NCBI GenBank assembly: GCA_943324575.2
Contig: CALPMD020000009.1
Location: 1-13,246, forward strand
Direction of reading: 5' to 3'
From: Akkermansia muciniphila
GTDB lineage: Bacteria > Verrucomicrobiota > Verrucomicrobiia > Verrucomicrobiales > Akkermansiaceae
Length of the DNA: 13,246 nt
In this document: piece after piece, positions 1 through 13,246 of the stretch
Layout: the number at the start of each line of letters is the position of its first letter
Numbering within the stretch: position 1 is the stretch's first letter
Program-made: the position numbers and the translations under genes
The notes under the pieces: generated by a model
What the model saw: only the letters and a program-made list of their open reading frames with translations
Told to the model about the DNA's origin: nothing
Database searches by the model: none

Positions 1-3000
1 GGAAGAGGTTGACGCTTTGGGCTTGGTCGATCCACTTCTGGCGGCGGGCTGCGGCGTCGATGATGTATTCGTGATCGATGCCGAAGACGGTCTTGTGCTT
101 GAGTTTGAGAGCTTCGGGGATCTCGTCGATGGCGTCGAGTTCACCGTCGAAGTACTTGAGCTGGTCAAGCATGTCCTGGTTCCAGAGGCCGAGTTTCTTG
201 AGGTCTTTGACGAGCTCGGAGTTGAGGATGATGAACTCGCCGCCGAGGTTGGATTTGACGTAGAGGTTTTTGTAGTTCGGCTCGATGCAGGGGGTGGTGC
301 CCATGATGTTCGAGATGGTCGCGGTGGGGGCGATGGCGAGCACGTTCGAGTTGCGCATGCCGTGTTTGGCGATTTTTTCGCGAACGTGAGTCCAGTCCAT
401 CTTGCCGCCGCGTGGGACATCGATTTTGCGACCGCGCTCGAATTCGAGAAGGTCGACGGTGTCCTGTGGCAGGAGGCCGCGATCCCACTTGGAGCCCTTG
501 TAGCTGGAGTAGGTGCCGACTTCGGAGGCGAGGTCGCTGGACGCATTGTAGGCGTAGTAGGCGATCGCTTCCATGAACTCGTCGTTGAACTCAATGGCCG
601 CTTGCGAGGCGAAGGCGAGGTTGCGCTTGTAGAGGGCGTTCTGCACACCCATGACGCCGAGGCCGATGGGACGGTGGCGGGTGTTGGCAGTCTTCGCCGC
701 AACCGTGGGGTAGAAGTTGATGTCGATGACGTTGTCCAGTGCGCGGATGGCGACGGTGATCGTCTCCTTGAGCATCTCGTGGTCGAGCGCGCCATCGGCC
801 GTGATGTGCGTATCGAGCACGACGGAACCGAGGTTGCAGACGGCCGTTTCCTCGTCGGAGGTGTTGAGGGTGATCTCGGTGCAGAGGTTGCTGGAGTGGA
901 TGACGCCGCAGTGGTCTTGCGGGGAGCGGACGTTGCAAGGGTCCTTGAAGGTGATCCATGGGTGACCGGTTTCGAAGACCGTTTTGAGCATGGACTTCCA
1001 GAGCTCGAGGGCGGCGATCTGGCGGGACCAGATTTTGCCTTCGGCGGCCATCGCTTCGTACTCGCAGTAGCGGGTTTCGAAGGCGCTGCCGTAGAGGTCG
1101 TGGAGATCGGGGACTTCGTTGGAGCGGAAGAGCGTCCAGGTGCCGCGCTCTTCCATGCGTTTCATGAAGAGGTCGGGAACCCAGTTCGCAGTGTTCATGT
1201 CGTGGCAACGGCGGCGTTCGTCACCGGTATTTTTGCGGAGCTCGAGGAAGTCCTCGATGTCGTTGTGCCACGTTTCCAGATACGCACAACCTGAGCCGCG
1301 GCGCTTGCCGCCTTGGTTGACGGCGACGAGTTGGTCGTTGTGGAGTTTGAGGAAAGGAATGATGCCTTGCGACTCGCCATTGGTGCCTTGGATGTAGCCA
1401 CCGGTGCCGCGGACTGCGGTCCATGAGCCACCGAGACCACCCGCCCACTTGCTGAGGAAGGCGTTTTCCGCGATGCCGCGATACATGATCGATTCGATGG
1501 AGTCGTCGACCTTGTAAAGGTAGCAGGAGGAGAGCTGGCTGTGGAGCGTACCCGAGTTGAAAAGGGTCGGTGTGGAGGAGCAGAAGCGGCGACCTTTGTA
1601 GAGGTTGTAGAGGCGGATGGCCCACTCTTCGCGGTTGGTTTCCTCTTTCTTGAAGAGACCCATGGAGACGCGCATCCAGAAGAACTGCGGGGTCTCGATG
1701 CGGCGGTGCTTGTTGCCCGTTTTGTCAACGACAAGGTAACGATCGTAGAGGGTCTGAATGCCGAGATAGTCGAAGTCGAGATCGGCCGTGGGGTCGAACG
1801 CATCGGCGAGTTTGTCGATGTTGTAAACTTCGAGCAATTCGGGGTTGATGCGTTTGATGGAGACGCCGTATTTGAGGTAAGACTTGAAGGCGACCTTGTG
1901 AGCTTGCTTCAGTTTGTCGATGCCGTCCTTGAGGATGCTCCAGTCGAGGACTTCTTCGTAGATGTAGGAAAGGAGAATGCGTCCTGCGAATTTTGCGAAG
2001 TCGGCGTCTTTTTCGATCAGAGCCTTGGCGTTGAGGATGATGGTGTTCTTAAGATCCTTCTCGGAAATCTCCGTGCCGACGGAGCGGCGAAGCTCGCGTT
2101 CGATTTCGACATCCGTCAGGTTGAGGCTAAGGCCGATGGAGGCATAGGCGATGCGCTTGCGGAGATCGGTGCCATCCCAGAACGAGGACACGCCTTCGTC
2201 CGAGGTGATGGTCACCATCAGTTCCTGATTGGGATCCTCGGCGTTGGCTTCTTCTTCAATGCGAAGACGCGAGCGCTGGGCGCGATACAAAATATAGTGT
2301 TCCGCAGCCTTGAAGTAACCTTGGCGCATGAGTTCTTCTTGAACCATGTCCTGAACGTCTTCGATGTGGACGAAGGATTGGTCGCCGCGGCGGATTCGGT
2401 CAGTCACGCCTTTTGCGATATCGATGGCAGGCTCGGGGTTTTCCTTGATGGTGAGGAAAGCCTTGCGCACGGCGATTTCGATTTTCGTTTCAGACCAAGG
2501 AACGACGTTGCCGCTGCGACGGATGAGACGGACGGGCAGAGAATTCGGGCCTGCGTGGACATCGACGCTACCGTGTTTTTCCATCGAACGACGGAAGGCG
2601 AGGGACTTCGCGACGTCGTAGGCCTCGTTTTCGAGTAGGGCCTTTTCGATGAGGAGATAGAGGTCAGCTTCGGATAGGCGCAGGCGGCCACCCTCGTCGA
2701 GGGACTTGGTCAGCGAATTTGCAACGCTGTGGGCGACGTCCGAAACGAACTGACGGTTGACGTCGGAGAAGATGGAATTTTCATCGTGGCTGCGTGAAAT
2801 CAGCAAGTCAGCCAGAGAATCACCGATGGCGTCCGCGACATCTTCTAATGAAAACTGGGTGTCCGTGGTGCCGCGAGTGACGATGATGTCGGCGATGGGA
2901 GCACGCTTTTCGGATGGGAGAATATCCCGCCACGCGTAGCCGCGTTCCATGGTGGGGGTGGAGAAGCGATCGGTGATGACCTTTTTGAGAAGGAGATCTT

Positions 3001-3025
3001 CGTTGGTATTAACAGAGCGGTACAT
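1..3025 (-). CDS. nrdA: Ribonucleoside-diphosphate reductase class I alpha subunit (R1), 3' end beyond the window
   Basis: This is the catalytic subunit that reduces ribonucleoside diphosphates to deoxyribonucleotides together with NrdB. From the ATG at 3025, 1008 codons are visible before the window edge. By comparison with my recollection of the chlamydial R1, roughly 80-90 C-terminal residues are missing, including the tyrosine pair and the redox-active cysteine pair. Active-site residues seen: C501 (SSCYLYK), the N713-C715-E717 triad (NLCTE) and partner C730 (ETAVC). Nucleotide-handling segments such as RKNTGDERRR and APTATISNI are intact. The N-terminus is long, with about 370 residues preceding the barrel. 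It contains one clear ATP-cone (about 165-252, with WSETKIEIAV and ending HYILYRAQR), a degenerate cone-like segment before it (about 46-150) and a third cone-like segment after it (about 268-360). This matches the layout of Chlamydia R1. nrdB lies 49 bp upstream on the same strand, so the two probably form an operon. No Shine-Dalgarno precedes the start. Identity is very secure. Confidence 0.97.
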   Translation of the reverse strand, partial: MYRSVNTNEDLLLKKVITDRFSTPTMERGYAWRDILPSEKRAPIADIIVTRGTTDTQFSLEDVADAIGDSLADLLISRSHDENSIFSDVNRQFVSDVAHSVANSLTKSLDEGGRLRLSEADLYLLIEKALLENEAYDVAKSLAFRRSMEKHGSVDVHAGPNSLPVRLIRRSGNVVPWSETKIEIAVRKAFLTIKENPEPAIDIAKGVTDRIRRGDQSFVHIEDVQDMVQEELMRQGYFKAAEHYILYRAQRSRLRIEEEANAEDPNQELMVTITSDEGVSSFWDGTDLRKRIAYASIGLSLNLTDVEIERELRRSVGTEISEKDLKNTIILNAKALIEKDADFAKFAGRILLSYIYEEVLDWSILKDGIDKLKQAHKVAFKSYLKYGVSIKRINPELLEVYNIDKLADAFDPTADLDFDYLGIQTLYDRYLVVDKTGNKHRRIETPQFFWMRVSMGLFKKEETNREEWAIRLYNLYKGRRFCSSTPTLFNSGTLHSQLSSCYLYKVDDSIESIMYRGIAENAFLSKWAGGLGGSWTAVRGTGGYIQGTNGESQGIIPFLKLHNDQLVAVNQGGKRRGSGCAYLETWHNDIEDFLELRKNTGDERRRCHDMNTANWVPDLFMKRMEERGTWTLFRSNEVPDLHDLYGSAFETRYCEYEAMAAEGKIWSRQIAALELWKSMLKTVFETGHPWITFKDPCNVRSPQDHCGVIHSSNLCTEITLNTSDEETAVCNLGSVVLDTHITADGALDHEMLKETITVAIRALDNVIDINFYPTVAAKTANTRHRPIGLGVMGVQNALYKRNLAFASQAAIEFNDEFMEAIAYYAYNASSDLASEVGTYSSYKGSKWDRGLLPQDTVDLLEFERGRKIDVPRGGKMDWTHVREKIAKHGMRNSNVLAIAPTATISNIMGTTPCIEPNYKNLYVKSNLGGEFIILNSELVKDLKKLGLWNQDMLDQLKYFDGELDAIDEIPEALKLKHKTVFGIDHEYIIDAAARRQKWIDQAQSVNLF

Positions 3026-3074
3026 TTGCAGAAGAGAAGGTTTAATTTAAAAAACGGGAGGGTTATAGGAGGGA

Positions 3075-4178
3075 TCAGAGTTCGTCATCATCCACCGAGC
3101 CCAGTGCGGAGGCTTTCTGGTACTCGGTGACTCGGCCTTCGAAGAAGTTGGTCTCCTTTTTGATGTCCATCATCTCGGCGAGCCAAGGGAAAGGGTTGGA
3201 GACGGATTCATTGAGCGGGGCGAGGCCGCAAGAGGTCAGTCGGCGGTCTGCAATATAGTCGATGTAGGTTTCGAAATCGACCGAGTTGAGCCCGAGGCCT
3301 GCCACGGGGAGGCAATCGCGGATGAACTGTTTCTCGAGGGTGATACCCTCTTTCATCGTGTCGCGGAGGTCATTGCGGAAGTCCTCGGTCCAGATGTCTG
3401 GATTTTCATCGATGAGATCCATGAGAAGGTTCCGGAAAACCTCGATGTGGTTTGACTCGTCACGCAGCGTGTAACGGAACATCTGGCCGATGCCTGGGAA
3501 TTTGTTCTGACGGTAGAGGCTCAGAATCATGCCAAACAGCCCGTAGAACTGAGTGCCCTCCATGACTTGACCGAACATGAAAATGTTTTTGGCCAGAGCC
3601 TGCTTGTTGGCCGTGATCGTGAGATCTACATCGCGGCGGAGGGCGCGACTGTTGGAGACGACAAAATTATTTTTCGCTTGGATCGAAGGAATATCCTCGA
3701 ACATCGCCTCGCACTCGTGCGGGTTGATTCCGAGTGAGGAAATCATGTAAACGAGCGAATCCGCATGGATGTTTTCTTCGTGGGCGTGGCGGCCCAGCAC
3801 CAGTTTAAGTTCAGGTGCGGTAACGACTTCGCGGACGACGTGCAGCACGTTGTCGCCGACAATCCCTTCGGCCGCCGAGAAATAGCCGATGCCCATCTTG
3901 ATGATCCAGCGTTCGACGTCCGAGATTTCATCAGAGCGCCACTGCTCGACGTCCTTCTGCATTGTGACGTCCTCGGGCTCCCAGTGATTGTTCTTCATCG
4001 TCTTGTACAGATCGTACGCCCACTGGTATTTGAGTGGGAGGATGTTGAAGAACATCGTTTGCTTGCCGTTGATCACTCTCTTACTGGCGTAGGCTTGCTC
4101 GGCTTTTTCGCGATCCAATAAGAAGGTGCGGTTTCCTAGTGCGACGGTGGTAGTAGTGGCGGAGGTGATGGTGGACAT
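3075..4178 (-). CDS. nrdB: Ribonucleotide reductase class Ic-type beta subunit (R2) with leucine at the radical-tyrosine position
   Basis: This subunit builds the metal cofactor that generates the active-site radical in NrdA. It has 367 residues from the ATG at 4178. An in-frame ATG at 4259 would add 27 residues (MDVVSF...) that look like untranslated sequence, so I chose 4178. All six metal ligands are visible: E104 (AAEG), E135 and H138 (HEENIH), E207 (MEG), E241 and H244 (RDESNH). The first ligand is Glu, as in Chlamydia, not Asp as in E. coli. Four residues after H138, where E. coli has Y122 and Chlamydia has F127, the codon is CTC (L142). Other class Ic features remain: Y236 aligns with Chlamydia Y222, W66 with W51, and C-terminal Y353 with the subunit-interface tyrosine. 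The C-terminus ends in an acidic tail, DDDEL. The R2 assignment is secure. The class Ic (Mn/Fe) assignment is inferred from sequence. Confidence 0.96.
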   Translation of the reverse strand: MSTITSATTTTVALGNRTFLLDREKAEQAYASKRVINGKQTMFFNILPLKYQWAYDLYKTMKNNHWEPEDVTMQKDVEQWRSDEISDVERWIIKMGIGYFSAAEGIVGDNVLHVVREVVTAPELKLVLGRHAHEENIHADSLVYMISSLGINPHECEAMFEDIPSIQAKNNFVVSNSRALRRDVDLTITANKQALAKNIFMFGQVMEGTQFYGLFGMILSLYRQNKFPGIGQMFRYTLRDESNHIEVFRNLLMDLIDENPDIWTEDFRNDLRDTMKEGITLEKQFIRDCLPVAGLGLNSVDFETYIDYIADRRLTSCGLAPLNESVSNPFPWLAEMMDIKKETNFFEGRVTEYQKASALGSVDDDEL

Positions 4179-4290
4179 ACAATTTGAGGGAAAAGGAAAG
4201 CGGATGAGTCTGGGAAGGTAGCTGCAACCGCAGCGACTTGAAAAACTGACAACATCCATCGATCAGGTCAAATCTGTTTTTCGCCATGTG

Positions 4291-4310
4291 GTATCCACAA
4301 ATTATTCACA
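4291..4310 (+). promoter_or_regulatory. Two tandem DnaA-box-like 9-mers between the nrdB promoter and gene
   Basis: TTATTCACA at 4302-4310 fits the relaxed DnaA-box consensus TTWTNCACA exactly. GTATCCACA at 4291-4299 differs from the strong box TTATCCACA at one position. They are in the same orientation and start 11 bp apart, about one helical turn. In E. coli the nrdAB promoter is controlled by DnaA, so DnaA control of this nrd operon is a reasonable inference. Nine-mers this short occur by chance in AT-rich sequence, so the call depends on the tandem arrangement and position. Confidence 0.4.
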
Positions 4311-4326
4311 ATACTATATATTGTGC
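4311..4326 (-). promoter_or_regulatory. Candidate NrdR box overlapping a putative nrdB -10 element
   Basis: The 16-mer at this position matches 14 of 16 positions of the NrdR-box consensus as I remember it (acaCwAtATaTwGtgt). It lies 133 bp upstream of the nrdB start codon. NrdR is the ATP/dATP-sensing repressor of ribonucleotide reductase genes. Within it, read on the minus strand, is TATAGT (plus-strand 4313-4318), a 5/6 match to a sigma-70 -10 element, so repressor binding would plausibly occlude the promoter. I found no good -35 at standard spacing. The site also overlaps a perfect inverted repeat, CACAATA-ctata-TATTGTG, at 4307-4325. NrdR normally binds a pair of boxes about three helical turns apart, and I see no convincing second box at 31-32 bp on either side, which lowers confidence. 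Confidence 0.55.
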
Positions 4327-4337
4327 TTTGGACGACG

Positions 4338-4354
4338 TGTTTACTTTGTAAACA
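4338..4354. promoter_or_regulatory. Perfect palindrome TGTTTAC-ttt-GTAAACA upstream of nrdB
   Basis: Two perfect 7-bp arms flank a 3-bp spacer, about 160-176 bp upstream of the nrdB start and just beyond the NrdR-like box. The size and symmetry suit a dimeric regulator's operator. It does not match the NrdR consensus, and I do not recognise the regulator. It could serve nrdBA or the divergent yceD-rpmF side. Confidence 0.4.
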
Positions 4355-4513
4355 GCAGCCATTATCTAGGCCTTGCGGCGATTGGCAAGCCGGCTCTGAG
4401 AGCGGCCGGATACTAAAAAATATTTGAAAAACTGTTAGATCGCGACGGAGTGAGGGGGGATTTAAAAAAAATTCTAAATTTTGTAAGATTGAGGACAAGC
4501 ATACGTCATTTTT

Positions 4514-4542
4514 TTCACAAAGCACTGAAAAACAGTGATAAA
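4514..4542 (+). promoter_or_regulatory. Candidate sigma-70 promoter reading towards yceD-rpmF
   Basis: TTCACA (4514-4519, 5/6 match to TTGACA) is followed after exactly 17 bp by GATAAA (4537-4542, 4/6 match to TATAAT), in the AT-rich part of the divergent intergenic region. It would start transcription near 4550 and give yceD a leader of about 300 nt. The call is by consensus only. Confidence 0.33.
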
Positions 4543-4849
4543 AATTTCTAAGGCCCGAACTTTTTTGAGCAGGTTATGGGTGATCTTGCCGTCAAAGAAG
4601 ACACAAACCGACCACCTCTCAATCAAACGGAATGGATCGGTGTGCACGTCCTTTTAGGATCGTGGTCGACCTCCTTCGAAAGACAGACAAGGGCGGTGGC
4701 ATTCGAGCGGGTCGAAAAGGCCTTTAAATGCTGTAGGTGCGGGACTTTGCGAGGGAACGAATCCTCTTGGACTGCAGGCCGCAGGGTCGAGAATGGCCAG
4801 GAAAAGAATTCCAGCTTGGCGCTGCTCGGCGAGAAGTTACATTGGGCCT
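4543..4849 (+). other. Gene-free leader upstream of yceD, nothing recognised
   Basis: Together with the nrd control region, 671 bp (4179-4849) lie between the divergent nrdB and yceD starts. A 119-codon reading frame from 4576 overlaps the start of yceD by 86 bp. It has no recognisable domain and an erratic composition, so I do not call it a gene. I looked for tRNA, RNase P RNA, tmRNA and SRP RNA signatures and saw none. If the promoter near 4514 is real, this segment is a roughly 300-nt untranslated leader and could carry regulation of the ribosomal protein gene downstream. Confidence 0.5.
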
Positions 4850-5353
4850 ATGAAACGACATTTATTGATCGATCTTTCCAGTTTACCCGAAGAGGGAAAG
4901 GCGCTTTCCGGAGAATTGCCCAAAGAAATTTTTGACCTCCCAGAGGATGATGCGAAGCCCGTTGGGCCGCTGAAATATGAGCTGTGGGCGCAGCGCTTCG
5001 GCTCCGAAATTCTGCTCACGGGATCGCTGTCCGCTGCGTTTGAATTCACCTGCGTTAGGACGCTGCATCCTTTTATTCAAAGCATTCATCTGGAAAATGT
5101 GGCGGTCTCTTTGGAGATTGAAAGGGAAGGGGAGATCGACGTCACGGACGCCTTGCGCGAAGAGGTTTTGATCAACTTCCCGCTGGATCCGCGGTGCGAG
5201 GATGGAGACGTCCCGCAGAAGTGCGAAATCGATTCTCGATATTTATCAGTGGACAAGCCGGCAGAAGATGGGCTACCCACTCCCCCCCGCGCCGAGAGTA
5301 ACGACCGATGGTCTGCTCTCGACATCCTCAAGGACCTCAAGGACCCAACTTAA
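4850..5353 (+). CDS. YceD/DUF177 family protein preceding rpmF
   Basis: This is a 167-residue acidic protein of the DUF177 (YceD) family, whose gene sits immediately upstream of rpmF across much of the bacteria. The family is linked to 23S rRNA accumulation or maturation in other organisms, but the molecular mechanism is unclear to me. Family features seen: a Cys-Arg element followed by a hydrophobic strand (FTCVRTLHPF, 67-75), the mid-region DVTDALREEVLINFPLDPRC (97-116) with a second Cys at 125, and the typical C-terminal RWSALDILKDLK (153-164). I chose the ATG at 4850 because the protein then begins MKRHLLIDLSSL, as family members do. An in-frame ATG at 4793 would add 19 atypical residues. 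rpmF starts 14 bp after the stop, so the two are almost certainly co-transcribed. A weak GAGAAG lies about 14 bp before the start. Confidence 0.88.
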   Translation: MKRHLLIDLSSLPEEGKALSGELPKEIFDLPEDDAKPVGPLKYELWAQRFGSEILLTGSLSAAFEFTCVRTLHPFIQSIHLENVAVSLEIEREGEIDVTDALREEVLINFPLDPRCEDGDVPQKCEIDSRYLSVDKPAEDGLPTPPRAESNDRWSALDILKDLKDPT

Positions 5354-5367
5354 CCGAACACAAGACC

Positions 5368-5550
5368 ATGGCCGTACCAAAGCGCCGCCAATCCAAAAGC
5401 CGTCAAAAAATGCGCCGCGGCGCCAACCGCTGGCGTGCACCGATCTTTAAAAGCTGCCCAGAATGTGGCAGTAAAGTGCCATCGCACATTGCCTGCCCGT
5501 CCTGTGGCTACTATCGCGATCGCCAAGTTCTCGACGTCGAAGCGCTCTAA
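5368..5550 (+). CDS. rpmF: Large ribosomal subunit protein bL32
   Basis: This is a 60-residue basic protein starting MAVPKRRQSKSRQKMRR, the hallmark N-terminus of bL32, a component of the 50S subunit. Four cysteines in two CxxC pairs (C30, C33, C43, C46) form a zinc ribbon, so this is the zinc-binding C+ form. A reading frame extends upstream to 5308 but overlaps yceD in another frame. The universal MAVPK start fixes the true start at 5368. It lies 14 bp after yceD and is followed by an intrinsic terminator. Confidence 0.98.
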   Translation: MAVPKRRQSKSRQKMRRGANRWRAPIFKSCPECGSKVPSHIACPSCGYYRDRQVLDVEAL

Positions 5551-5576
5551 AGCGTTTCACGTGTTGATTCATTTTG

Positions 5577-5612
5577 ATTACCGCTCTGGGGTTTCCTCGG
5601 GCGGTAATTTTT
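5577..5612 (+). terminator. Rho-independent terminator after rpmF
   Basis: A perfect 8-bp stem, ATTACCGC (5577-5584) with GCGGTAAT (5601-5608), has a 16-nt loop and is followed at once by a T-run (ending 5612), with further T-rich sequence behind it. It begins 26 bp after the rpmF stop. It should end or attenuate the yceD-rpmF transcript, so plsX-fabH probably depends on readthrough or its own promoter in the 50 bp before plsX. Confidence 0.75.
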
Positions 5613-5662
5613 CGTTGCCTTTTTCGATTTTAAAGTCTGCGTAATCGTATTCTCAAATTAGC

Positions 5663-6691
5663 ATGAAAGTCGCCTTAGACGCCATGGGTGGGGACCACGC
5701 CCCCGCAGTAAACATCGGAGGAGCCATCGACGCTCTGCGCTATTACCCGAAGCTGCAGCACCTGTATCTGGTGGGGGTGCGTGAAGAGCTCGAAGAGGAA
5801 TGCAAAAAACAAGGGCTCGATCTGACTGACTCTCGCGTCAGCATCATTCATGCGCCCGAGGTCATCGGTATGGCGGAACCGGGTGCTAAAACCGTGCGCC
5901 GCAAAAAACTTTCCTCCATCAGCATCGCCATGGACATGGTGAAAGAAGGGCAAGCTGATGCCTTTGTTTCCGCGGGAAATACGGGAGCTGCCGTAGCTGC
6001 TGCGACGTTGAAGCTGCGCACTTTGCCCGGCGTCGATCGTGCCGGCATCGCCTCCGCCCTGCCCAACGAACATGGCTTGTGCCACATTCTCGATGCGGGG
6101 GCCAATCCCGAGGCAAAACCTCACCACCTCGTTGCCTACGCGGTGATGGGCACCGCCTTTTCGCGCGGGGTTCTCGGCGTGAAAGAGCCCAAAGTCGGCC
6201 TGATGTCCAACGGCGAAGAAGACGAAAAAGGCACCGCCTTCACCAAGGAAGCGTTCAAACTCCTCAAGGAAACGCCCGGCATCAACTTCGTCGGTAACGT
6301 CGAAGGCCGCGATCTGTTTGAAACCGAACTCGACGTTGTGCTCTGCGACGGTTTTGTCGGCAACGTCATGCTCAAGACCATCGAGGCCACGGCCAAGGCG
6401 GTTTCCAAGTGGCTCAAAACCGAGATCCAAGGCAATCCGCTGCGCATCGCCGGTGCGATGTTGGCCAAGGGCGCGTTCAAAGCGCTCAAGGCGAAAAGCA
6501 GCTATGAAACTTACGGCGGCAGTCCGCTGTTAGGCGTCAATGGCGTGGTCATCATCGCTCACGGTTCATCCTCGGCTCTGGCCGTTCGCAATGCGATCCG
6601 CGTTGGCTTGGAAACCGTCGAAACCGGCGTGAATGTCAGAATCCTCGAGGCCTTGGCCGTGATTCCCGTGGCAGCTCCTGCAGAGCTGTAG
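5663..6691 (+). CDS. plsX: Phosphate acyltransferase PlsX
   Basis: PlsX converts acyl-ACP and orthophosphate to acyl-phosphate, the acyl donor for PlsY in the first step of phospholipid synthesis. It is a soluble or peripheral cytoplasmic enzyme. The 342-residue length is normal. Family motifs seen in order: the N-terminal DAMGGDHAP (6-14), SAGNTGA (103-109), SNGEEDEKGT (182-191), LCDGFVGNVMLK (227-238) and GGSPLLGVNGVVIIAHGSS (285-303). The ATG at 5663 is right for the family, but no Shine-Dalgarno precedes it. fabH follows after 64 bp, the standard plsX-fabH pairing. Nothing looks damaged or unusual. Confidence 0.97.
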   Translation: MKVALDAMGGDHAPAVNIGGAIDALRYYPKLQHLYLVGVREELEEECKKQGLDLTDSRVSIIHAPEVIGMAEPGAKTVRRKKLSSISIAMDMVKEGQADAFVSAGNTGAAVAAATLKLRTLPGVDRAGIASALPNEHGLCHILDAGANPEAKPHHLVAYAVMGTAFSRGVLGVKEPKVGLMSNGEEDEKGTAFTKEAFKLLKETPGINFVGNVEGRDLFETELDVVLCDGFVGNVMLKTIEATAKAVSKWLKTEIQGNPLRIAGAMLAKGAFKALKAKSSYETYGGSPLLGVNGVVIIAHGSSSALAVRNAIRVGLETVETGVNVRILEALAVIPVAAPAEL

Positions 6692-6755
6692 ATTTAGTTC
6701 GGAATCTCACTTCGCGCTTGTGGCATCCGCTCGGGGATTCCACTGTCCCGCCCGT

Positions 6756-7757
6756 ATGAGTGAATTGACTTCCGCCATCCAAGTTTGCATCGCCGGGACT
6801 GGCAGTTATCTGCCGGAACGAATCCTGACCAACGCCGAGCTTGCGATCCAAGTGGACACCAGCGACGAGTGGATCACTTCCCGCACCGGCATCAAGGAGC
6901 GCCGGATTGCCGCGGAAGGCGAGTTCACCTCCCACATGGCTTCCTACGCTGCCAAGCGTGCGCTGGAACAAGCCGGCCTCGCCGCTGAAGATGTCGAGCT
7001 GATCATCGTTGCTACCATCACGCCCGACACGCCGACTCCGGCCACCGCCTGTTATGTCCAACAGATCCTCGGCGCGAATCGCGCCGTGGCATTCGACATT
7101 TCTGCCGCCTGTTCGGGATTCCTCTACGCCATGAAAATTTCCAAGCGCCTCATCTCCGACGGCGCTTTCAAAAACGCCCTCATCATCGGCGCTGAAAAAC
7201 TTTCCACCGTTACCAACTGGGAAGACCGCACGACCTGCGTGCTCTTTGGCGATGGTGCTGGTGCCGCTGTTTTACGGCGCTCCGAACCGGGCGAAGGCGC
7301 GATCCTCGCCACCGAGATGGGTACCGATGGCAACCTCACCCATCTGCTCAATATTCCCGGTGGCGGCAGCGCTTGCCCGATCACCAGCAGCAATGTGAAC
7401 GACCACCTTTTCTCGCTCACCATGATGGGCAAGGAAGTCTTCAAACACGCCGTCACTCGCATGAAAGAGGCAGCCGAAAAAGTCATCGAGCGCGCCGGCC
7501 TAAAAGCCGAAGACATCGCCTGCGTCATTCCCCATCAGGCGAATCTGCGCATTATTGATGCCATTGCCGACCGGCTCGCCGTGCCGAACGAGCGCGTCTT
7601 CGTCAACCTCGACAAGTACGGCAACACCTCTGCCGCCGCAGTGGCCATTGCGCTTGATGAAGCAAGCCGCACGGGAGCCTTCAAGCGCGGGGACAATATC
7701 GTACTCGTCGTCTTTGGTGCGGGCCTCACTTGGGCCGCCGCGGCGATCCGTTGGTAG
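6756..7757 (+). CDS. fabH: Beta-ketoacyl-ACP synthase III
   Basis: This enzyme condenses acetyl-CoA (or another short acyl-CoA) with malonyl-ACP to start type II fatty-acid synthesis. It has 333 residues with the complete Cys-His-Asn triad: C119 (DISAACSGF), H260 (IPHQANLR) and N290 (KYGNTSAA). The N-terminal GTGSYLPERILTN and the GDGAGA loop are also typical. I chose the ATG at 6756 (MSELTSAIQ). An in-frame ATG at 6720 adds 12 residues lacking family similarity. It follows plsX and is probably co-transcribed with it. The primer specificity (straight or branched) cannot be read from the sequence. The next gene begins 47 bp later, and no hairpin terminator separates them. Confidence 0.97.
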   Translation: MSELTSAIQVCIAGTGSYLPERILTNAELAIQVDTSDEWITSRTGIKERRIAAEGEFTSHMASYAAKRALEQAGLAAEDVELIIVATITPDTPTPATACYVQQILGANRAVAFDISAACSGFLYAMKISKRLISDGAFKNALIIGAEKLSTVTNWEDRTTCVLFGDGAGAAVLRRSEPGEGAILATEMGTDGNLTHLLNIPGGGSACPITSSNVNDHLFSLTMMGKEVFKHAVTRMKEAAEKVIERAGLKAEDIACVIPHQANLRIIDAIADRLAVPNERVFVNLDKYGNTSAAAVAIALDEASRTGAFKRGDNIVLVVFGAGLTWAAAAIRW

Positions 7758-7804
7758 CCCGTTGCAGGGCTTAGCTCATGTTCTGTTTGTCTTAAAAACC
7801 CATT

Positions 7805-10800
7805 ATGAAAATCCGTCCTATTCATTCGCTTGCCTTCCTTATCCTAGGAGGATGTGCCGTTTTTTTCGTTCTCCACTTCGCCCGATCACCTCTTCCCGCT
7901 GCTCGAAAAAGTGATGCCGCCGAAAGCCCCGCTGCAGTGCCGACCTCCAAGGATTTCAGCTTCGGCTACTTCCCCAACGGGTGGCGCAAGATCAAAGGCG
8001 ATGCATCCCCTGATATCCTGAGCATCGAAACGGGCTACTACGGCTTCAGCGTGGATGTAGACCGCCTTTCCAAGGCCCGCTTTGGCTTGATCAATGACAA
8101 TTGCGATTACTCGCAGGCCCTCGCCGCGGGTACGGAACGACTCGACGACCTTGCTCCCGCTGAATTGTCGATCCAACTTAAGTTGGATGGCAAGGTTTAC
8201 CGCGCGGTGAATTGCTCCGCAGGTCGGAGGGTTGATGGCAACCGGATGTCAGACGCATTCCTTTGGGAATCCGCGCGCCTGGTCCAGCATTTCAGCTTGA
8301 ATGATGTGCAATTCGCCGACGAAGCCGGGAACGTGCTTGGGTGCAGCGCATCACTGGATCTCGTGGCGTGGCCCGACAGCCTGACGCTCACGGCTGACAT
8401 GACGCCGCGCTTCGTGTCTCGCGATGCTGCCGCCAAGGGTGTCGCCGGAGCAGGTTGGTCTGTGGCATCTGCCACCTTGGATTTGGCCAACTCCAAAGAT
8501 CACGACCCCTCGAACTTTACGGTCGAATGTTGGTTCAAATTTCCTGAAGCCAATCCGCCGGCGCAATACCCAGCATGGATTCTGTGCAGGAACCAAAGCA
8601 ACGATGTGGATGGCAACTACGGCTTTACCCTCAATCCCAATAATACGGTGACTGCCTCGATGAACATCGGTGGCAACAAGGAGAATAGTCACGAAATAGT
8701 CTCTAAGAACCCAGCTCCGCTCACACCCGATGTTTGGCACCTTCTGGCGCTCACCTATGAAGGCCAGACGATGACGTTTTACATCGACGGCAAGGCTGTC
8801 GGGACTAAGAAGATCGGGCGGGCACGCACACCGGCGAATTCTTCCTTGCAGATCGGTCAGCGGGCCGACGGGAAGCGCCAAACAGCCCCAGTCACCTATG
8901 ATCAAATTCGCATCTGGGACCGGGCAGTGACGTCTCAGGAGATCGCCGCGCATGCCTCGCAACCCACCAAAATCGATGCTCGCAACGGTCTGGTTTTTGA
9001 AGAGAACTTCGATGTCTATAACGGCAAGTTCACGCCACCGCTCTGGACCAACGCCCAAATCAGTGTCGGCTTGAAAAGTCATGCTCACGACTGGCACGCG
9101 CAGCAGGCGGTGACAGGCGAATGGAACGAAGGTGAACACAAAAGGGTTAGCCTCACTTGCGATGTGTTAGAAGGGCGGCTTCCGCAGAAGGATATCGCCG
9201 TCCGTCTTCTCAATCAGGATTTCCCTGTCCAGTTCGAGGCGAACAATAATTGTCACGTCACACGAGTTAGAAATCCCAAGCGCACCTGGGATGGCACCAA
9301 ATGCGAGGATTTGCGGGAATACGATGAGTTTCTCATCGAGGTCGAAAACAAGAGCGTCAAAAACGGCAGTATTCCATTCCTACTGGACTTCACCTATCCC
9401 TTCGGTATGACGGGACTCTGCCCGATCCTTTGCGGCGCGGATGGAACGCCCACGGGCATTCCGGTGCAACTCAGCAAGAATTGGCACCATTATAGACTAG
9501 GTTGTTATCTGCGCGCCTATACCTTGCTTCCGGCACCTGTGGGCAAATCCACTTACATGATGCGAGTCCCCTACGGCTTTTATGGAACCTTGCCGCAGGC
9601 CACGCATGCTCAGCTTTCACTCGCCAGCGATGCGCGCTGGGGCAATAACAGCGGCAATGGCCGCTGGGATCAAATCGCTGTCGGAGGATGGGGGGAGACC
9701 CTCTGTTTGGATATGGACTTCAGCTTGACCGATAACATCATCACGGATAATCGTGGCATGCTTATCAGGAATGGGAAGGAAGGGCCGAAGTGGGGCTGGT
9801 GTGAAGCCGGATGGGGGGGGGATTGGCTTGGCCTCAAAGATTCCGCTGGCAAGCAACTTTTATTGAATGGGATCAAGACCTCCTACTTGTCCCACGGCCC
9901 CTGCTTGAGCGACGTGCGTTATGACGGACACTACGGCAGCTCACGTGAAGTGAAGCTCAAGAGCACGGTGCGAGTCCCGCGTAGCGACGATTACGTAAGG
10001 ACATACTTCGAGCAATCCTATGACTTCAATGGTACTTTCCCGACCAAGGGTGCTTGGCTTTTCAAAATGGGAAAAACCCATAAACTTGTCACGCCCCGCG
10101 TCGCCTATGGCAATCGCGACGGGTTGATCACCGAACACCAAGCTCCGGCTAAAGCCAAGCCCGGTAATCTCATGGTCGACCATCTCGAACTCACAGGCGA
10201 AGGTCCTTGGTGGGTCGCCTATCCCGATGCCGACGTCCAACTCCCGCCCGGACGTGAAAACTTTGGTAAAGCGAGCCGTGCGTTCATCATCCGCTCGTTC
10301 AAAGCGACCTTTGGCGGCAAGACCATCAGCAAGCCATCGATCTCCCTGATCGTGGGCAACGTCTTGCCAGATGGCAGGCTGGACATCGACTGCGTCATGG
10401 TGCCGCCGAAGGATGTCACGGAATTCCAGCCCGGCGACCGCGTGGAGATGGATGTGGAGTGGATCAACGTGCCGCGCATCGCGGAAGACTACTACGGCCC
10501 CAACGAAGCGCTCCGCACACACCTTGTCGAAGCACCCCGCTCATGGAAGACCGTGCATCGCGAGGCGATCGGCAATGATCTCACGGTCAGCGCCTCTGGA
10601 GGTACCGTGACACACCGCTACCCGATCATCATCCACGCGAAAGAACCGCTTGTGTCCATGAATGCCGTAAAGGATCTCGCCAATAAGCTACCAAGTTCGT
10701 GGGCAGATATCGGATTGCCGAATCGCGTGATTCCTTGGCTGAGGCCCAGTGTCACTGTAGATATCAAGGGCGGCGTGGGTTATGTGCCGATCCGATTTGA

Positions 10801-10996
10801 CGGCTTACCCATTGCCGATGGATACCGACTCTACGAACAGGTGGCTGGAAAGCTCATTCCGCTCGATCAATCCCTCCATGGCAACGATTTTTGGCAGGCC
10901 GACTATGAGGCCACCACAAAAACCTACAGCTTGACCTATAACCTGCCACTCGACGGTAAGCCGACCTCCCGTTGGGTATTCAAGTCAATCAAGTAA
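7805..10996 (+). CDS. Large exported LamG-domain protein of unknown function
   Basis: This is a 1063-residue protein. The N-terminus (MKIRPIHSLAFLILGGC...) has a short basic head and a hydrophobic stretch at 8-25. LGGC at 14-17 could be a lipobox, but the hydrophobic run continues past the Cys, so a signal anchor is equally possible. Residues about 222-386 form a LamG/concanavalin A-like jellyroll, with FTVECWFKF, the WHLLALTYEG strand, FYIDGKAVG and the closing IRIWDRAVTSQEIAAHA. The flanking segments (about 50-200 and 390-1063) look beta-rich and aromatic (GWGETLCLDMDF, GWCEAGWGGDW, YGPNEALRTHL). I do not recognise a catalytic family in them. The arrangement suggests a LamG inserted into or added to a larger beta-sandwich protein acting on, or binding, extracellular glycans. 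That is inference. A run of nine G lies at 9813-9821 inside the frame (W670-G672). A different role from the upstream lipid genes is likely. Confidence 0.85.
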   Translation: MKIRPIHSLAFLILGGCAVFFVLHFARSPLPAARKSDAAESPAAVPTSKDFSFGYFPNGWRKIKGDASPDILSIETGYYGFSVDVDRLSKARFGLINDNCDYSQALAAGTERLDDLAPAELSIQLKLDGKVYRAVNCSAGRRVDGNRMSDAFLWESARLVQHFSLNDVQFADEAGNVLGCSASLDLVAWPDSLTLTADMTPRFVSRDAAAKGVAGAGWSVASATLDLANSKDHDPSNFTVECWFKFPEANPPAQYPAWILCRNQSNDVDGNYGFTLNPNNTVTASMNIGGNKENSHEIVSKNPAPLTPDVWHLLALTYEGQTMTFYIDGKAVGTKKIGRARTPANSSLQIGQRADGKRQTAPVTYDQIRIWDRAVTSQEIAAHASQPTKIDARNGLVFEENFDVYNGKFTPPLWTNAQISVGLKSHAHDWHAQQAVTGEWNEGEHKRVSLTCDVLEGRLPQKDIAVRLLNQDFPVQFEANNNCHVTRVRNPKRTWDGTKCEDLREYDEFLIEVENKSVKNGSIPFLLDFTYPFGMTGLCPILCGADGTPTGIPVQLSKNWHHYRLGCYLRAYTLLPAPVGKSTYMMRVPYGFYGTLPQATHAQLSLASDARWGNNSGNGRWDQIAVGGWGETLCLDMDFSLTDNIITDNRGMLIRNGKEGPKWGWCEAGWGGDWLGLKDSAGKQLLLNGIKTSYLSHGPCLSDVRYDGHYGSSREVKLKSTVRVPRSDDYVRTYFEQSYDFNGTFPTKGAWLFKMGKTHKLVTPRVAYGNRDGLITEHQAPAKAKPGNLMVDHLELTGEGPWWVAYPDADVQLPPGRENFGKASRAFIIRSFKATFGGKTISKPSISLIVGNVLPDGRLDIDCVMVPPKDVTEFQPGDRVEMDVEWINVPRIAEDYYGPNEALRTHLVEAPRSWKTVHREAIGNDLTVSASGGTVTHRYPIIIHAKEPLVSMNAVKDLANKLPSSWADIGLPNRVIPWLRPSVTVDIKGGVGYVPIRFDGLPIADGYRLYEQVAGKLIPLDQSLHGNDFWQADYEATTKTYSLTYNLPLDGKPTSRWVFKSIK
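9813..9821 (+). repeat. Nine-G homopolymer inside the LamG-protein gene
   Basis: Nine consecutive G residues sit in the coding sequence for W670-G671-G672. Losing one G leads to a TGA after about 14 codons. Gaining one leads to a TGA after about 35 codons. A shorter run of six G lies about 120 bp upstream. Homopolymers of this length are prone to slippage, so it could be a phase-variable switch or simply an indel-prone spot in sequencing. Confidence 0.9.
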
Positions 10997-11414
10997 CTCT
11001 GACGAACACATCCCATTCCCTTTGTTTCGCGCCTCATCGACTGGACTCCAAGGCGCCCGTTTTCGGTCTGACAACGAGCGTTTTCGGTCTGGCAACGAGC
11101 GTTTTCGGTCTGGCAACGAGCGTTTTCGGTCTGACAACGAGCGTTTTCGGTCTGGAAACGAGCGTTTTTAGTCTGGCAACGAGCGTTTTTAGTCTGGCAA
11201 CGAGCGTTTTTGGTCTGGCAACGAGCGTTTTTAGTCTGGAAACGAGCGTTTTTAGTCTGGAAACGAGCGTTTTTTAAGGAGTTTCGCCGGCCTGTTCCAC
11301 GCCGCTTTGCCAGTTTCGCTGTAGCAGGCCACACGGCAGCACCCCGGCTTGCGCCAGCCACTAAAATCCATCGTTAGATTTCGCGTGCCGTGGGGTGGGG
11401 GATCTGTTTGAGTC
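10997..11414. other. Gene-free stretch between the LamG gene and hprK
   Basis: Besides the 21-bp array, this 418-bp interval contains no gene I can support. A minus-strand frame opening at a GTG (11361) and continuing to 10936 covers the array and the end of the LamG gene, but its sequence outside the repeats is featureless. No clear intrinsic terminator follows the LamG gene, and no promoter with good consensus is seen before hprK. Confidence 0.6.
11057..11273. repeat. Tandem array of ten 21-bp repeats plus a partial copy
   Basis: Ten consecutive units of exactly 21 bp start at 11057, 11078, 11099, 11120, 11141, 11162, 11183, 11204, 11225 and 11246, with a truncated eleventh at 11267. Each reads GCGTTTT, then CGG, TAG or TGG, then TCTG, then AC, GC or GA, then AACGA. 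The first five units carry CGG and the last five TAG or TGG, so the array has two sub-families. Each junction creates the palindrome AACG-AG-CGTT, repeated at 21-bp spacing (two helical turns). Because 21 is a multiple of three, both strands stay open through the array as degenerate heptapeptides (VFGLATS on plus, NARCQTE on minus). Neither frame has a credible start or domain, so I treat it as a non-coding minisatellite. Confidence 0.97.
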
Positions 11415-12374
11415 ATGGCCATGCCACCACGAGTGAAGACGGTCGCCTCGATTTCGGTCGAAAAGTTTTACGAATCCCACGCGGAGGCACTGGGGCTGCA
11501 GTTGCACGGCGAGCGGGTCGGTTTCGATCGCTTGATCAGCGAGCCCGCCATGAATCGTCCAGGTCTGGCGCTGGCGGGTTTCTTTTCCTACTTCGCCAAG
11601 AAGCGGGTGCAGGTGTTGGGTAATTCCGAGCTGTCGTACTTGAAAAAACTGCCCGAGGCGATGCGGGTCGATCGCTTCCGCCGGATGTGTGATCGGGAGA
11701 TTCCTTGCATCGTGATCGCCCGCGGCTCGACCTTGGACGAAAGCCTAACAGCAGTGGCCAGGGAGCACCGCATCCCGGTTTTTAACACGTCGCAGGTGAC
11801 GATGAATTTCCTCAATGCGGCGACGATCCGGCTGGAGCATGAGTTTGCGCCCAGCGTCACGCTGCACGGCTGCATGGTCGATATGCGTGGGGTGGGGGTG
11901 CTGATCGTCGGCAAGAGCGGATCGGGGAAATCGGAGACCGCGATCGGCCTGTTAGAGCGCGGTGCCTCGTTGGTGGCTGATGATATGGTGCGCATCAAGT
12001 ATGTGGGCGGCGAACTGGTGGCGACTTCGCCAGACCTCTCGCGCGGCTACATGGAGATTCGCGGCATCGGGATCATCAACGTGGCGAACTTGTTCGGCTT
12101 GGCATCGATCCGTCCAGACAAGCGTCTCGATCTGGTCGTTACGCTCAAGCCGCAGGCCGATCTCAACGAGGTGGATCGCATCGGCCTACAACAAAAGACC
12201 TATGAGATTTTGGGCCAGCAGGTGGTCCATGTGGAGATCCCCGTCGGTCCCGGGCGCGACACCGCGCGGATGGTGACGATCGCCGCACTCGATCAGCAGT
12301 TGCGCCGTCTGGGCTACAACATGGCGGACGAATTCAACCAAAAGCTGCTCAACCAAATGGCTGGCGGCAAGTGA
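11415..12374 (+). CDS. hprK: HPr kinase/phosphorylase
   Basis: This bifunctional cytoplasmic enzyme phosphorylates and dephosphorylates a regulatory serine of HPr-like proteins, linking energy and carbon status to regulation. It has 319 residues. The N-terminal domain (about 1-145) contains RVQVLGNSELSYL. The kinase core has the catalytic-region His (H151 in LHGCMVD), the Walker A loop GKSGSGKS (166-173), the acidic pair D189-D190 (VADD) and the family signature MEIRGIGIINV (213-223). The late loop reads VGPGRD (277-282), where many relatives have an Asn after GR. The start could be 11415 or the ATG two codons on (11421). No ptsH, ptsI, ptsN or rapZ is in the window, so its partner is encoded elsewhere. 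The gene ends directly against the convergent HNH gene. Confidence 0.96.
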   Translation: MAMPPRVKTVASISVEKFYESHAEALGLQLHGERVGFDRLISEPAMNRPGLALAGFFSYFAKKRVQVLGNSELSYLKKLPEAMRVDRFRRMCDREIPCIVIARGSTLDESLTAVAREHRIPVFNTSQVTMNFLNAATIRLEHEFAPSVTLHGCMVDMRGVGVLIVGKSGSGKSETAIGLLERGASLVADDMVRIKYVGGELVATSPDLSRGYMEIRGIGIINVANLFGLASIRPDKRLDLVVTLKPQADLNEVDRIGLQQKTYEILGQQVVHVEIPVGPGRDTARMVTIAALDQQLRRLGYNMADEFNQKLLNQMAGGK

Positions 12375-12986
12375 TCAGGCAGAGCGCCGGCCGTCGGTAC
12401 GCTCATGGTGCAGGAAGTGGCCCCAGCTTTCATCTCCGAGCCCGTTTTCGTGCATGCCATAGAGCGGTCGCCAGCGCGGGGCGATGGGTTGGCACTTCGG
12501 GTGCATATTGGCCTCATGCGGCAGTTTGTTGCCTTTGCGCGTGTTGCAGCGGAAACAGGAGGTGACAATGTTATCCCAAGTGGTGCGCCCGCCTTTGTCG
12601 CGGGGTGTGACGTGATCGAGATTGAGCTGCGCCTCCGGTAGAATCTGGGTGCAGTATTGGCAGGTGAAGCGGTCCCGCAGAAAGACATTGCGGCGGGAAA
12701 ATTTGACCTCCAACCGTGGCAAGCGGTCGTATTTGGAAAGGACGACGATTTTCGGCGGGCGGATCGCCAGTCTCGCGCCGTGGATCATTTCCGCTGTTAG
12801 GTGCTCTTGAGAATAGCAGATCCACGAGGAAAGATCGTGGGAATTGAAACGCTCCTCACCTTCCACCTGCACAACCTGCGCGTGGCCCAGGCACAACAAA
12901 TGCAGCGAGCGGCGAACCGAGCAGGTATGGATCGGTTGCCAGAACCGATTCAAAACAAGCACGGGATGTTCGAGTACGCCATTCAT
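12375..12986 (-). CDS. HNH endonuclease-family protein
   Basis: This is a 203-residue protein from the ATG at 12986. A TTG at 12998 would add four residues, but MNGVLEHPVLVLN resembles the family start, and GGGAAAG precedes the ATG. The N-terminal part (LVLNRFWQPIHTCSVRRSLHLL, about 10-31) and FSRRNVFLRDRFTCQYC (96-112) are typical of a widespread stand-alone bacterial HNH family. The HNH core is complete: C109 and C112, then D124-H125 (NLDHVTPRDKGG), N139 (WDNIVTS), and C144 and C147 with N148. A four-Cys zinc knuckle is therefore expected. The substrate is unknown. Relatives are usually single genes rather than parts of restriction systems, and no methylase lies nearby. Its stop is adjacent to that of hprK on the other strand. 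Confidence 0.92.
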   Translation of the reverse strand: MNGVLEHPVLVLNRFWQPIHTCSVRRSLHLLCLGHAQVVQVEGEERFNSHDLSSWICYSQEHLTAEMIHGARLAIRPPKIVVLSKYDRLPRLEVKFSRRNVFLRDRFTCQYCTQILPEAQLNLDHVTPRDKGGRTTWDNIVTSCFRCNTRKGNKLPHEANMHPKCQPIAPRWRPLYGMHENGLGDESWGHFLHHERTDGRRSA

Positions 12987-13246
12987 CAGCTTTCCCAATC
13001 AATCGTAGGCAAGCTAGCAAAGCCCAGCGGCACGGCAACCCAAAAGCGCGCGCGGTTAGAGCGCGTAGATCAAAATTCGCTGTCCAAAAATCCTTGGATC
13101 TGCCATACTCCCGTTCGATCTGGATCTTGACCCAAGTGCCTCTGGATGGCGAATCTGACGCTTTGTGACGAATTTGTCACAAACAACTCCTTGGGCAATC
13201 GTTGCTGGGGCAATAACAAGCGTTCGTGTTCGGCGAGATCGTCACC
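12987..13246. other. Right-edge non-coding stretch
   Basis: No reading frame with family similarity is visible in these 260 bases on either strand. The only structure I can point to is the 22-bp palindrome at 13162-13183. A TTGACC at about 13127-13132 lacks a matching -10 element at 17 bp. Confidence 0.5.
13162..13183. promoter_or_regulatory. 22-bp near-perfect palindrome, probable operator
   Basis: Arms TTTGTGAC (13162-13169) and GTCACAAA (13176-13183) are perfect inverted repeats around a 6-bp AT-rich centre (gaattt). Only one base pair in 22 breaks the symmetry. It lies about 180 bp upstream of the HNH gene, and the gene it serves may be beyond the right edge. The gap between TGTGA and TCACA is 8 bp. 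CRP and Rex sites normally have 6, so I do not assign it to either. Confidence 0.55.

Follow-up and report, generated by a model that had tools for sequence, protein, structure and literature searches.

A leucine at the radical-tyrosine position of a class I ribonucleotide reductase small subunit with an intact set of metal ligands in Akkermansia muciniphila

How might a class I ribonucleotide reductase (RNR) start catalysis when the position of its radical tyrosine is occupied by leucine? The question is raised by nrdB, the small-subunit gene in a 13,246-nucleotide stretch of Akkermansia muciniphila DNA (assembly GCA_943324575.2, contig CALPMD020000009.1, positions 1 to 13,246 of the forward strand; the whole of this stretch is referred to as the window). 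RNR makes the precursors of DNA, and the subclasses of class I are distinguished by their means of storing a single oxidising equivalent, most such enzymes keeping a radical on a tyrosine. The radical-generating subunit encoded here (R2) combines a full complement of metal ligands with an aliphatic residue where a tyrosine or phenylalanine is found in other subclasses. On balance, it is likely that R2 is a working aerobic class I small subunit in which an oxidised dimetal cluster would start catalysis, as in class Ic, with no tyrosyl radical. The gene and the residues on which this argument turns are the following.

3075..4178, minus strand: nrdB, class I RNR small subunit (R2, 367 aa), from matches to PF00268, NF005550 and Chlamydia trachomatis R2c
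3867..3869, minus strand: E104, first carboxylate ligand, by alignment; Glu as in classes Ic and Id, Asp in Ia and Ib
3765..3767, minus strand: H138, metal ligand in the E135-x-x-H138 motif, by alignment
3753..3755, minus strand: L142 (codon CTC), at the radical-tyrosine position and that of C. trachomatis Phe127, by alignment to 1syy and the F127Y mutant 2ani
3537..3539, minus strand: L214, Gly in Phe-type R2c, by comparison of alignment rows
3471..3473, minus strand: Y236, matching C. trachomatis Y222, by alignment
3468..3470, minus strand: T237, four residues before the ligand E241 and in the place of class Id Thr191, by an alignment to Flavobacterium johnsoniae numbered from Y104
3120..3122, minus strand: Y353, C-terminal relay Tyr, by alignment

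The product has the features of a class I small subunit, namely a PF00268 match (226 bits, cut-off 33.6), six carboxylate and histidine ligands, and an adjoining nrdA gene. It scores 338 bits against NCBIfam NF005550 (cut-off 309), and its closest solved structure is C. trachomatis R2c (4d8f; phmmer, E 2.9e-77, 263 bits). The start codon is taken as the ATG at 4178; an in-frame ATG further upstream, at 4259, would give a protein of 394 aa. A phmmer alignment of R2 residues 21–359 with C. trachomatis R2c is gapless through the region of residue 142 and places L142, at i+4 after ExxH, opposite residue 127 of chain 1syy; that column also holds the Tyr engineered into the F127Y mutant 2ani. There is no radical tyrosine at this position, as in class Ic. 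An initial annotation of the window had put L142 at the radical position, counted six metal ligands with Glu as the first, and matched Y144 and Y236 to C. trachomatis Y129 and Y222; all of this is borne out by the alignment, in which the ligands are E104, E135, H138, E207, E241, and H244. W66, D240, and Y353 are also present. Relay residues are known from the R2 proteins of C. trachomatis and Escherichia coli. We take C. trachomatis Y222 to be one of these, and Y353 presumably corresponds to E. coli Y356 and C. trachomatis Y338. The same annotation reasoned that a classical tyrosyl radical could not be held at this site, which is supported by the leucine at position 142 and, together with the intact ligand set, makes the metal-centred oxidant that it proposed likely. 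What is said here of the environment of the metals is drawn from sequence position, because the AlphaFold model, built on an alignment of 53 sequences, is of middling quality, with predicted local distance difference test (pLDDT) values <50 at residues 106–116, 129–135, and 339–348.

Leu142 is kept in 80 of 80 related loci (the best 80 of 580 confirmed stretches) in addition to the window's own locus; the cultured relatives Haloferula rosea and Luteolibacter marinus are represented in this set. The same residue is found in 120/120 listed homologues of the window R2 (best 120 of 3568) and in 120/120 of those listed for a second, more distant Leu-type query (best 120 of 7977), both lists holding the closest relatives and not a random sample. 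The check proposed at the outset, whether the residue is fixed across relatives, has a positive outcome for the relatives listed. Codons at the site, counted without two Leu rows that have an ambiguous residue (L054, L111), are CTC 41, CTG 21, CTT 7, CTA 5, TTG 4, and TTA 2 in 80 rows including the window's own locus, and CTG 31, CTC 31, TTG 10, CTT 9, TTA 3, and CTA 3 in 87 further rows. As all six Leu codons occur, Leu142 has been kept under synonymous turnover. The initial annotation had also cautioned that CTC, one base removed from the Phe codon TTC, might be a base-call slip. Given the leucine in all 80 loci and all 240 listed homologues, written with every Leu codon, a base-call error at 3753–3755 is unlikely; for the clade the doubt is removed, and there is next to no chance that a sequencing or assembly error turned Phe into Leu.

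Several other positions separate the Leu-type from Phe-type R2 proteins. A difference was counted as fixed when each Leu subclade (83 rows in one, 120 in the other) had the same residue in ≥90% of its rows and ≥90% of 13 Phe-type rows had a different one. By this measure the Leu-type residues (Phe-type in brackets) are L142 (Phe), L214 (Gly), T237 (Ile), T209 (Ile), Q210 (Phe), D140 (His), and Y99 (Phe). Asp140 was dropped as a mark of the Leu-type, as two haloarchaeal Phe-types share it. Nor is Tyr99 a special mark: it is found in 168/169 Leu rows and 120/120 rows of the second subclade, with Phe in 16/17 Phe rows, but is also present in 14 of 34 Tyr-type rows. Position 214 is Leu in 164/169 Leu rows (three Met, one Gln, one gap) and Gly in 16/17 Phe rows, and L214 is a possible packing partner of L142. 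Position 237 is Thr in 167/169 Leu rows (the others being one Leu, in a degenerate paralogue, and one gap) and in 120/120 rows of the second subclade (best 120 of 7977); it is Ile in 16/17 Phe rows, and Ile (29) or Ser (5) in the 34 Tyr rows. T237 sits four residues before the ligand E241, just as Thr191 of the class Id protein of F. johnsoniae lies four before its Glu. In that protein, Thr191 hydrogen-bonds to Tyr104 and keeps it away from Mn1 (PMC8463856). The Leu-type thus has the class Id Thr without its Tyr, and also without Lys71, whose place is taken by Gly108 in 167/167 Glu/Leu rows and 120/120 listed rows of the second subclade. Published pairings of the radical-site residue with the first ligand are Tyr/Asp in Ia and Ib, Phe/Glu in Ic, and Tyr/Glu in Id (PMC8463856); the Leu/Thr/Glu combination differs from all three.

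The grouping of these proteins was assessed with 74 hand-picked rows, drawn from 131 genome open reading frames (ORFs), four proteins from the second-subclade search, and nine named references. In the 74-row tree, the Leu rows and one degenerate paralogue fall together (Shimodaira–Hasegawa approximate likelihood-ratio test, SH-aLRT, 99). In a more careful tree, from which columns 104, 140, 142, 144, 209, 210, 214, and 237 were excluded and 13 long-branch rows of the 74 dropped, a single branch separates the 44 Leu-type rows from the rest (bootstrap 99, SH-aLRT 96). Phe-type rows need three changes on the tree and are intermixed with Asp/Tyr rows; C. trachomatis is not a row and is represented by same-phylum Phe-types, two haloarchaea, and Aureimonas. 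Both runs carried a warning that long branches meet at the outgroup. Since the Leu rows stand apart and the Phe rows are interspersed with Asp/Tyr rows, a recent point mutation within the Phe group does not appear to be the origin of the Leu-type. The initial description of the protein as otherwise class Ic in framework therefore needs qualifying: the position of residue 142, the ligands, Y144, and Y236 agree with it, but the Leu-types group apart from the Phe-types sampled and differ from them at several fixed positions, the class Id Thr among them.

R2 matches were found in 125 genomes of a 387-genome phylum sample, and the residue at the site in the 131 R2 ORFs from these loci is Leu in 88, Tyr in 28, Phe in 14, and Arg in one. 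Three divergent tandem paralogues and one fragment are counted among the 88, one of the Phe ORFs is R2lox-like, the Arg ORF is a frameshifted fragment (L207), and R2 fragments in genomes G349 and G369 lie outside the count. Leu accounts for 88 of 131 ORFs, which makes the Leu-type the most frequent R2 in this sample of the phylum. It comprises at least two subclades, one with Tyr at position 144, as in the window, and one with His there (120/120 listed, best 120 of 7977). Listed relatives bear Verrucomicrobiota-type names except for one "Bacterium" locus and two "Blastochloris sp." metagenome-assembled genome (MAG) clusters, and plasmid and phage collections gave only matches of <60% identity. 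In genus g2 of family f1, a class I R2 was not found in at least 18 genomes, and five have the Asp/Tyr type, not the Leu-type (L085, L086, L088, L092, L093). In genome G330, the coding sequence for R2 is spread over two frames (L207, 3129–4252, minus strand).

Upstream and downstream of nrdB, the window contains two further features of interest.

2..3025, minus strand: nrdA, encoding R1, the catalytic subunit, which has an ATP cone at its N-terminus; incomplete at the contig end; PF02867, PF00317, and PF03477
4311..4326, no strand assigned: NrdR-box-like site upstream of nrdB, agreeing at 14 of 16 positions with an NrdR-box consensus

The profile matches of nrdA represent the R1 barrel, the all-alpha domain, and the ATP cone. 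The gene lies 49 bases downstream of nrdB on the same strand, and is incomplete because window base 1 is also contig base 1. The genome assembly comprises 1.49 Mb in 253 contigs and is 70% complete; within that limit, no second R2 and no match to NrdD were found, and the NrdJ model matched nrdA only, below its cut-off. NrdI (PF07972) also had no match in this 70% complete assembly, in a search that was positive in 3 of 14 control genomes. When the 322 bases upstream were shuffled base by base 500 times, the NrdR-box-like score of 14 was never reached, and a score of 13 was reached twice. In the 500-base upstream stretches of relatives, scores were ≥13 in 50/159 and ≤12 in 109/159. NrdR regulation of nrdB through the site at 4311–4326 is suggestive only.

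Elsewhere in the window, the only Pfam match of a 1063-aa protein encoded at 7805–10996 (plus strand) is one concanavalin A-like (Laminin_G_3) domain, and a large part of the protein lies outside it. A tandem array at 11058–11274 (21-base unit, 10.3 copies, 94% matches) lies between this LamG-domain gene and an HPr kinase gene, and ORFs cross it on both strands.

In some relatives, a second and degenerate R2 accompanies the normal Leu-type protein. A search of 260 genomes of the family gave 13 matches of ≥58% identity, 12 of them in the neighbouring genus g201 and the remaining one in G378. All 12 of the second R2s that were fetched (L134, 3299–4513, plus strand, which is the same gene as L219; and L221–L231) lack E104, H138, E241, H244, and Tyr353, and for 11 of them the normal R2 is in the same fetched stretch. 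The second-R2 query is 100% identical, over 87% of its length, to a protein named for Persicirhabdus sediminis (P0242). Of 97 proteins new in the second-R2 search, 78 are degenerate: His244 is replaced by Arg in all 78, Tyr353 is present in none, E104 is kept in one, and 77 end in a short acidic tail with Leu. They form two sets, Q/R (65 proteins, P0242–P0306) and G/Q (13 proteins, P0307–P0315, P0317, P0318, P0323, and P0329, with Rubritalea among the names). The G/Q set carries E104G, E135Q, H138Q, E241A/T, and H244R, and is approximately 48–50% identical to the Q/R set. Median ratios of nonsynonymous to synonymous substitution (dN/dS) are 0.11 for degenerate R2s (17/78 computable pairs) and 0.04 for normal R2s (18/66 pairs), values that are rough because synonymous sites are near saturation and one pair is a duplicate. 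The second R2 looks to be under purifying selection. It is possibly a bacterial analogue of yeast Rnr4 (beta-prime), a protein in which diiron-centre residues are missing and which forms a pair with Rnr2 (PMC3824934). The one bacterial dual-form nrdB noted in the literature searched, that of Candidatus Liberibacter asiaticus, has a truncated second copy (PMC5154197), in contrast to the full-length second R2 described here. No report of a bacterial metal-less tandem R2 was found in the available portions of the literature searched. Another tandem paralogue (L182, 3703–5529, plus strand; L189, 3396–4643, minus strand) keeps all of the metal ligands and has Asn for Y236 and His for Y144.

The observed residues, their conservation, the tree grouping, and the gene pair are best explained by the oxidised-cluster start of catalysis put forward above; the metal identity, oxidation states, relay roles, packing, and part played by Thr237 are inferred as follows. 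The four Glu and two His ligands would bind Mn at site 1 and Fe at site 2. Oxidation of this pair by O2 would give Mn(IV)/Fe(III), and W66 and Y236 would pass on the additional electron that activation requires. From there the hole may travel via W66/D240 and Y353 into NrdA, the product of the adjoining gene, to reach its Tyr-Tyr pair and active-site Cys. Leu142 would be an inert packing residue where other subclasses have Tyr or Phe, and Leu214 perhaps compensates. Thr237 may bring a hydroxyl close to the metals, to bind either a water on the metals or one of the ligand carboxylates.

The cofactor is probably Mn/Fe, with Mn/Mn as the main rival. Mn/Fe was also the initial proposal, and it stays likely but is not given, because the Leu-types group apart and have fixed differences that include Thr237. 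Three points weigh against the mechanism as a whole: Thr237 resembles class Id, a dimanganese class; the Leu-types do not fall within the Phe-types, themselves interspersed with Asp/Tyr types; and the available portions of the literature searched yielded neither metal nor spectroscopic data on any Leu-type R2. It is unlikely, if worth considering, that R2 is instead class Id-like, using a dimanganese cluster brought to Mn(III)/Mn(IV), for which superoxide is perhaps the oxidant, with Thr237 in the place of Thr191. This would account for the Thr at four residues before the ligand Glu, where Phe rows mostly have Ile, and Glu as first ligand is shared with class Id. However, Lys is absent from the Lys71 place, Thr237 has no Tyr to hold, and the R1 has an ATP cone whereas class Id R1s are described as having none (PMC8463856). 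The sequence is also nearer to class Ic (4d8f, 263 bits) than to class Id structures (8dq3, 60 bits; 6cwo, 26 bits), and Thr is not shown to be exclusive to dimanganese sites, a Glu/Tyr protein of Blattabacterium having Ser there. A tentative and rather less conventional reading, to which only a modest chance is given, is that the Leu-types constitute a further class I RNR subclass. This would have a Leu/Thr/Glu dimetal site and an oxidant unlike that of characterised class Ic proteins (for instance, Mn/Mn formed with O2, or Mn/Fe with altered potential or assembly), would be the commonest R2 of the phylum sample, and would include one lineage with a metal-free beta-prime.

Leucine at position 142 might also mean that the radical has moved, so that Y99 or Y144 carries it beside a diiron or dimanganese site. 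The near-invariance of Tyr99 in both Leu subclades, against Phe in the Phe rows, is in keeping with this, but the occurrence of Tyr there in Tyr-type rows is not, and the AlphaFold model is poor in the part concerned. Y144 was judged unlikely as a required radical site because all of the listed second-subclade members have His, and it matches C. trachomatis Y129 besides. The first ligand is Glu, whereas Asp is paired with the radical Tyr in Ia and Ib (PMC8463856), and a relocated radical is very improbable. Scarcely better is the prospect that R2 is a diiron protein, metal-centred or weakly active, that has drifted to low activity and been retained for another reason. Nothing speaks for this directly, although the ligands do not reveal the composition of the cluster. 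Against it, this is the sole R2 found in the (incomplete) genome and adjoins nrdA, its residue 142 is strictly conserved under synonymous turnover, and the degenerate paralogues of relatives look very different.

The Leu-type is an uncharacterised variant, but the substitution itself is already on record and is not a discovery here. Leu, Ile, and Val in place of Phe are documented in R2c proteins (PMC3824934, citing Hogbom 2010), in agreement with the initial annotation, according to which leucine variants had appeared in surveys. These aliphatic variants resemble the window R2 in having Tyr replaced by an aliphatic residue, and are filed under R2c. The Phe substitution is described in PMC3019208, the available portion of which does not mention leucine. 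Some 150 tyrosine-less R2 sequences were in GenBank at the time of a 2014 review (PMC4118035), and Ic-like sequences share a network cluster with Ia-like ones, with large areas unexplored (PMC8463856). No biochemical study of a Leu-type R2 was found in the literature searched, which had little reach into subscription papers and was available in part. In characterised enzymes, C. trachomatis residues 127 and 223 go together; the Leu-type, with no Tyr, an aliphatic residue, and the class Id Thr for the usual Ile, uncouples them. This makes it testable which cluster-side residues set Mn/Fe versus Mn/Mn, and metal-based versus tyrosine-based oxidants.

Among known systems, the closest is C. trachomatis class Ic R2c (1syy, 4d8f, 4m1i), which likewise has four Glu carboxylates, two His, no Tyr at the radical site, equivalents of Y129 and Y222, and a C-terminal Tyr. 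The window R2 shares the Glu first carboxylate (E104) of this class but, with Leu142, departs from its Phe/Glu pairing (PMC8463856), and differs further in Leu214 for Gly200, Thr237 for Ile223, Gln210 for Phe196, and Asp140 for His125. Class O ferritin-like proteins also have a redox-inert Phe or Leu at the radical site, but are of approximately 240 aa, with no R1-binding extension and a different catalytic subunit (PMC9531940), whereas the window R2 is a full-length PF00268 protein with a tail and a class I R1. R2lox proteins have no C-terminal relay Tyr and are not believed to pair with an R1 (PMC3824934), in contrast to the window, where Y353 and nrdA are present and R2lox models score below cut-off. 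Class Id proteins (F. johnsoniae, 6cwp; Leeuwenhoekiella blandensis, 6sf5) share the Glu first ligand and the Thr four residues before the last Glu ligand, while the window R2 lacks their radical-site Tyr and Lys71 equivalent, is remote in sequence, and is accompanied by an R1 with an ATP cone. Classes Ia and Ib, with a radical Tyr and Asp as first ligand, are not matched by Leu142 and Glu104. In class Ie the metal ligands are replaced, whereas all six are intact in the window R2. Class Ie is called metal-free (PMC7239806).
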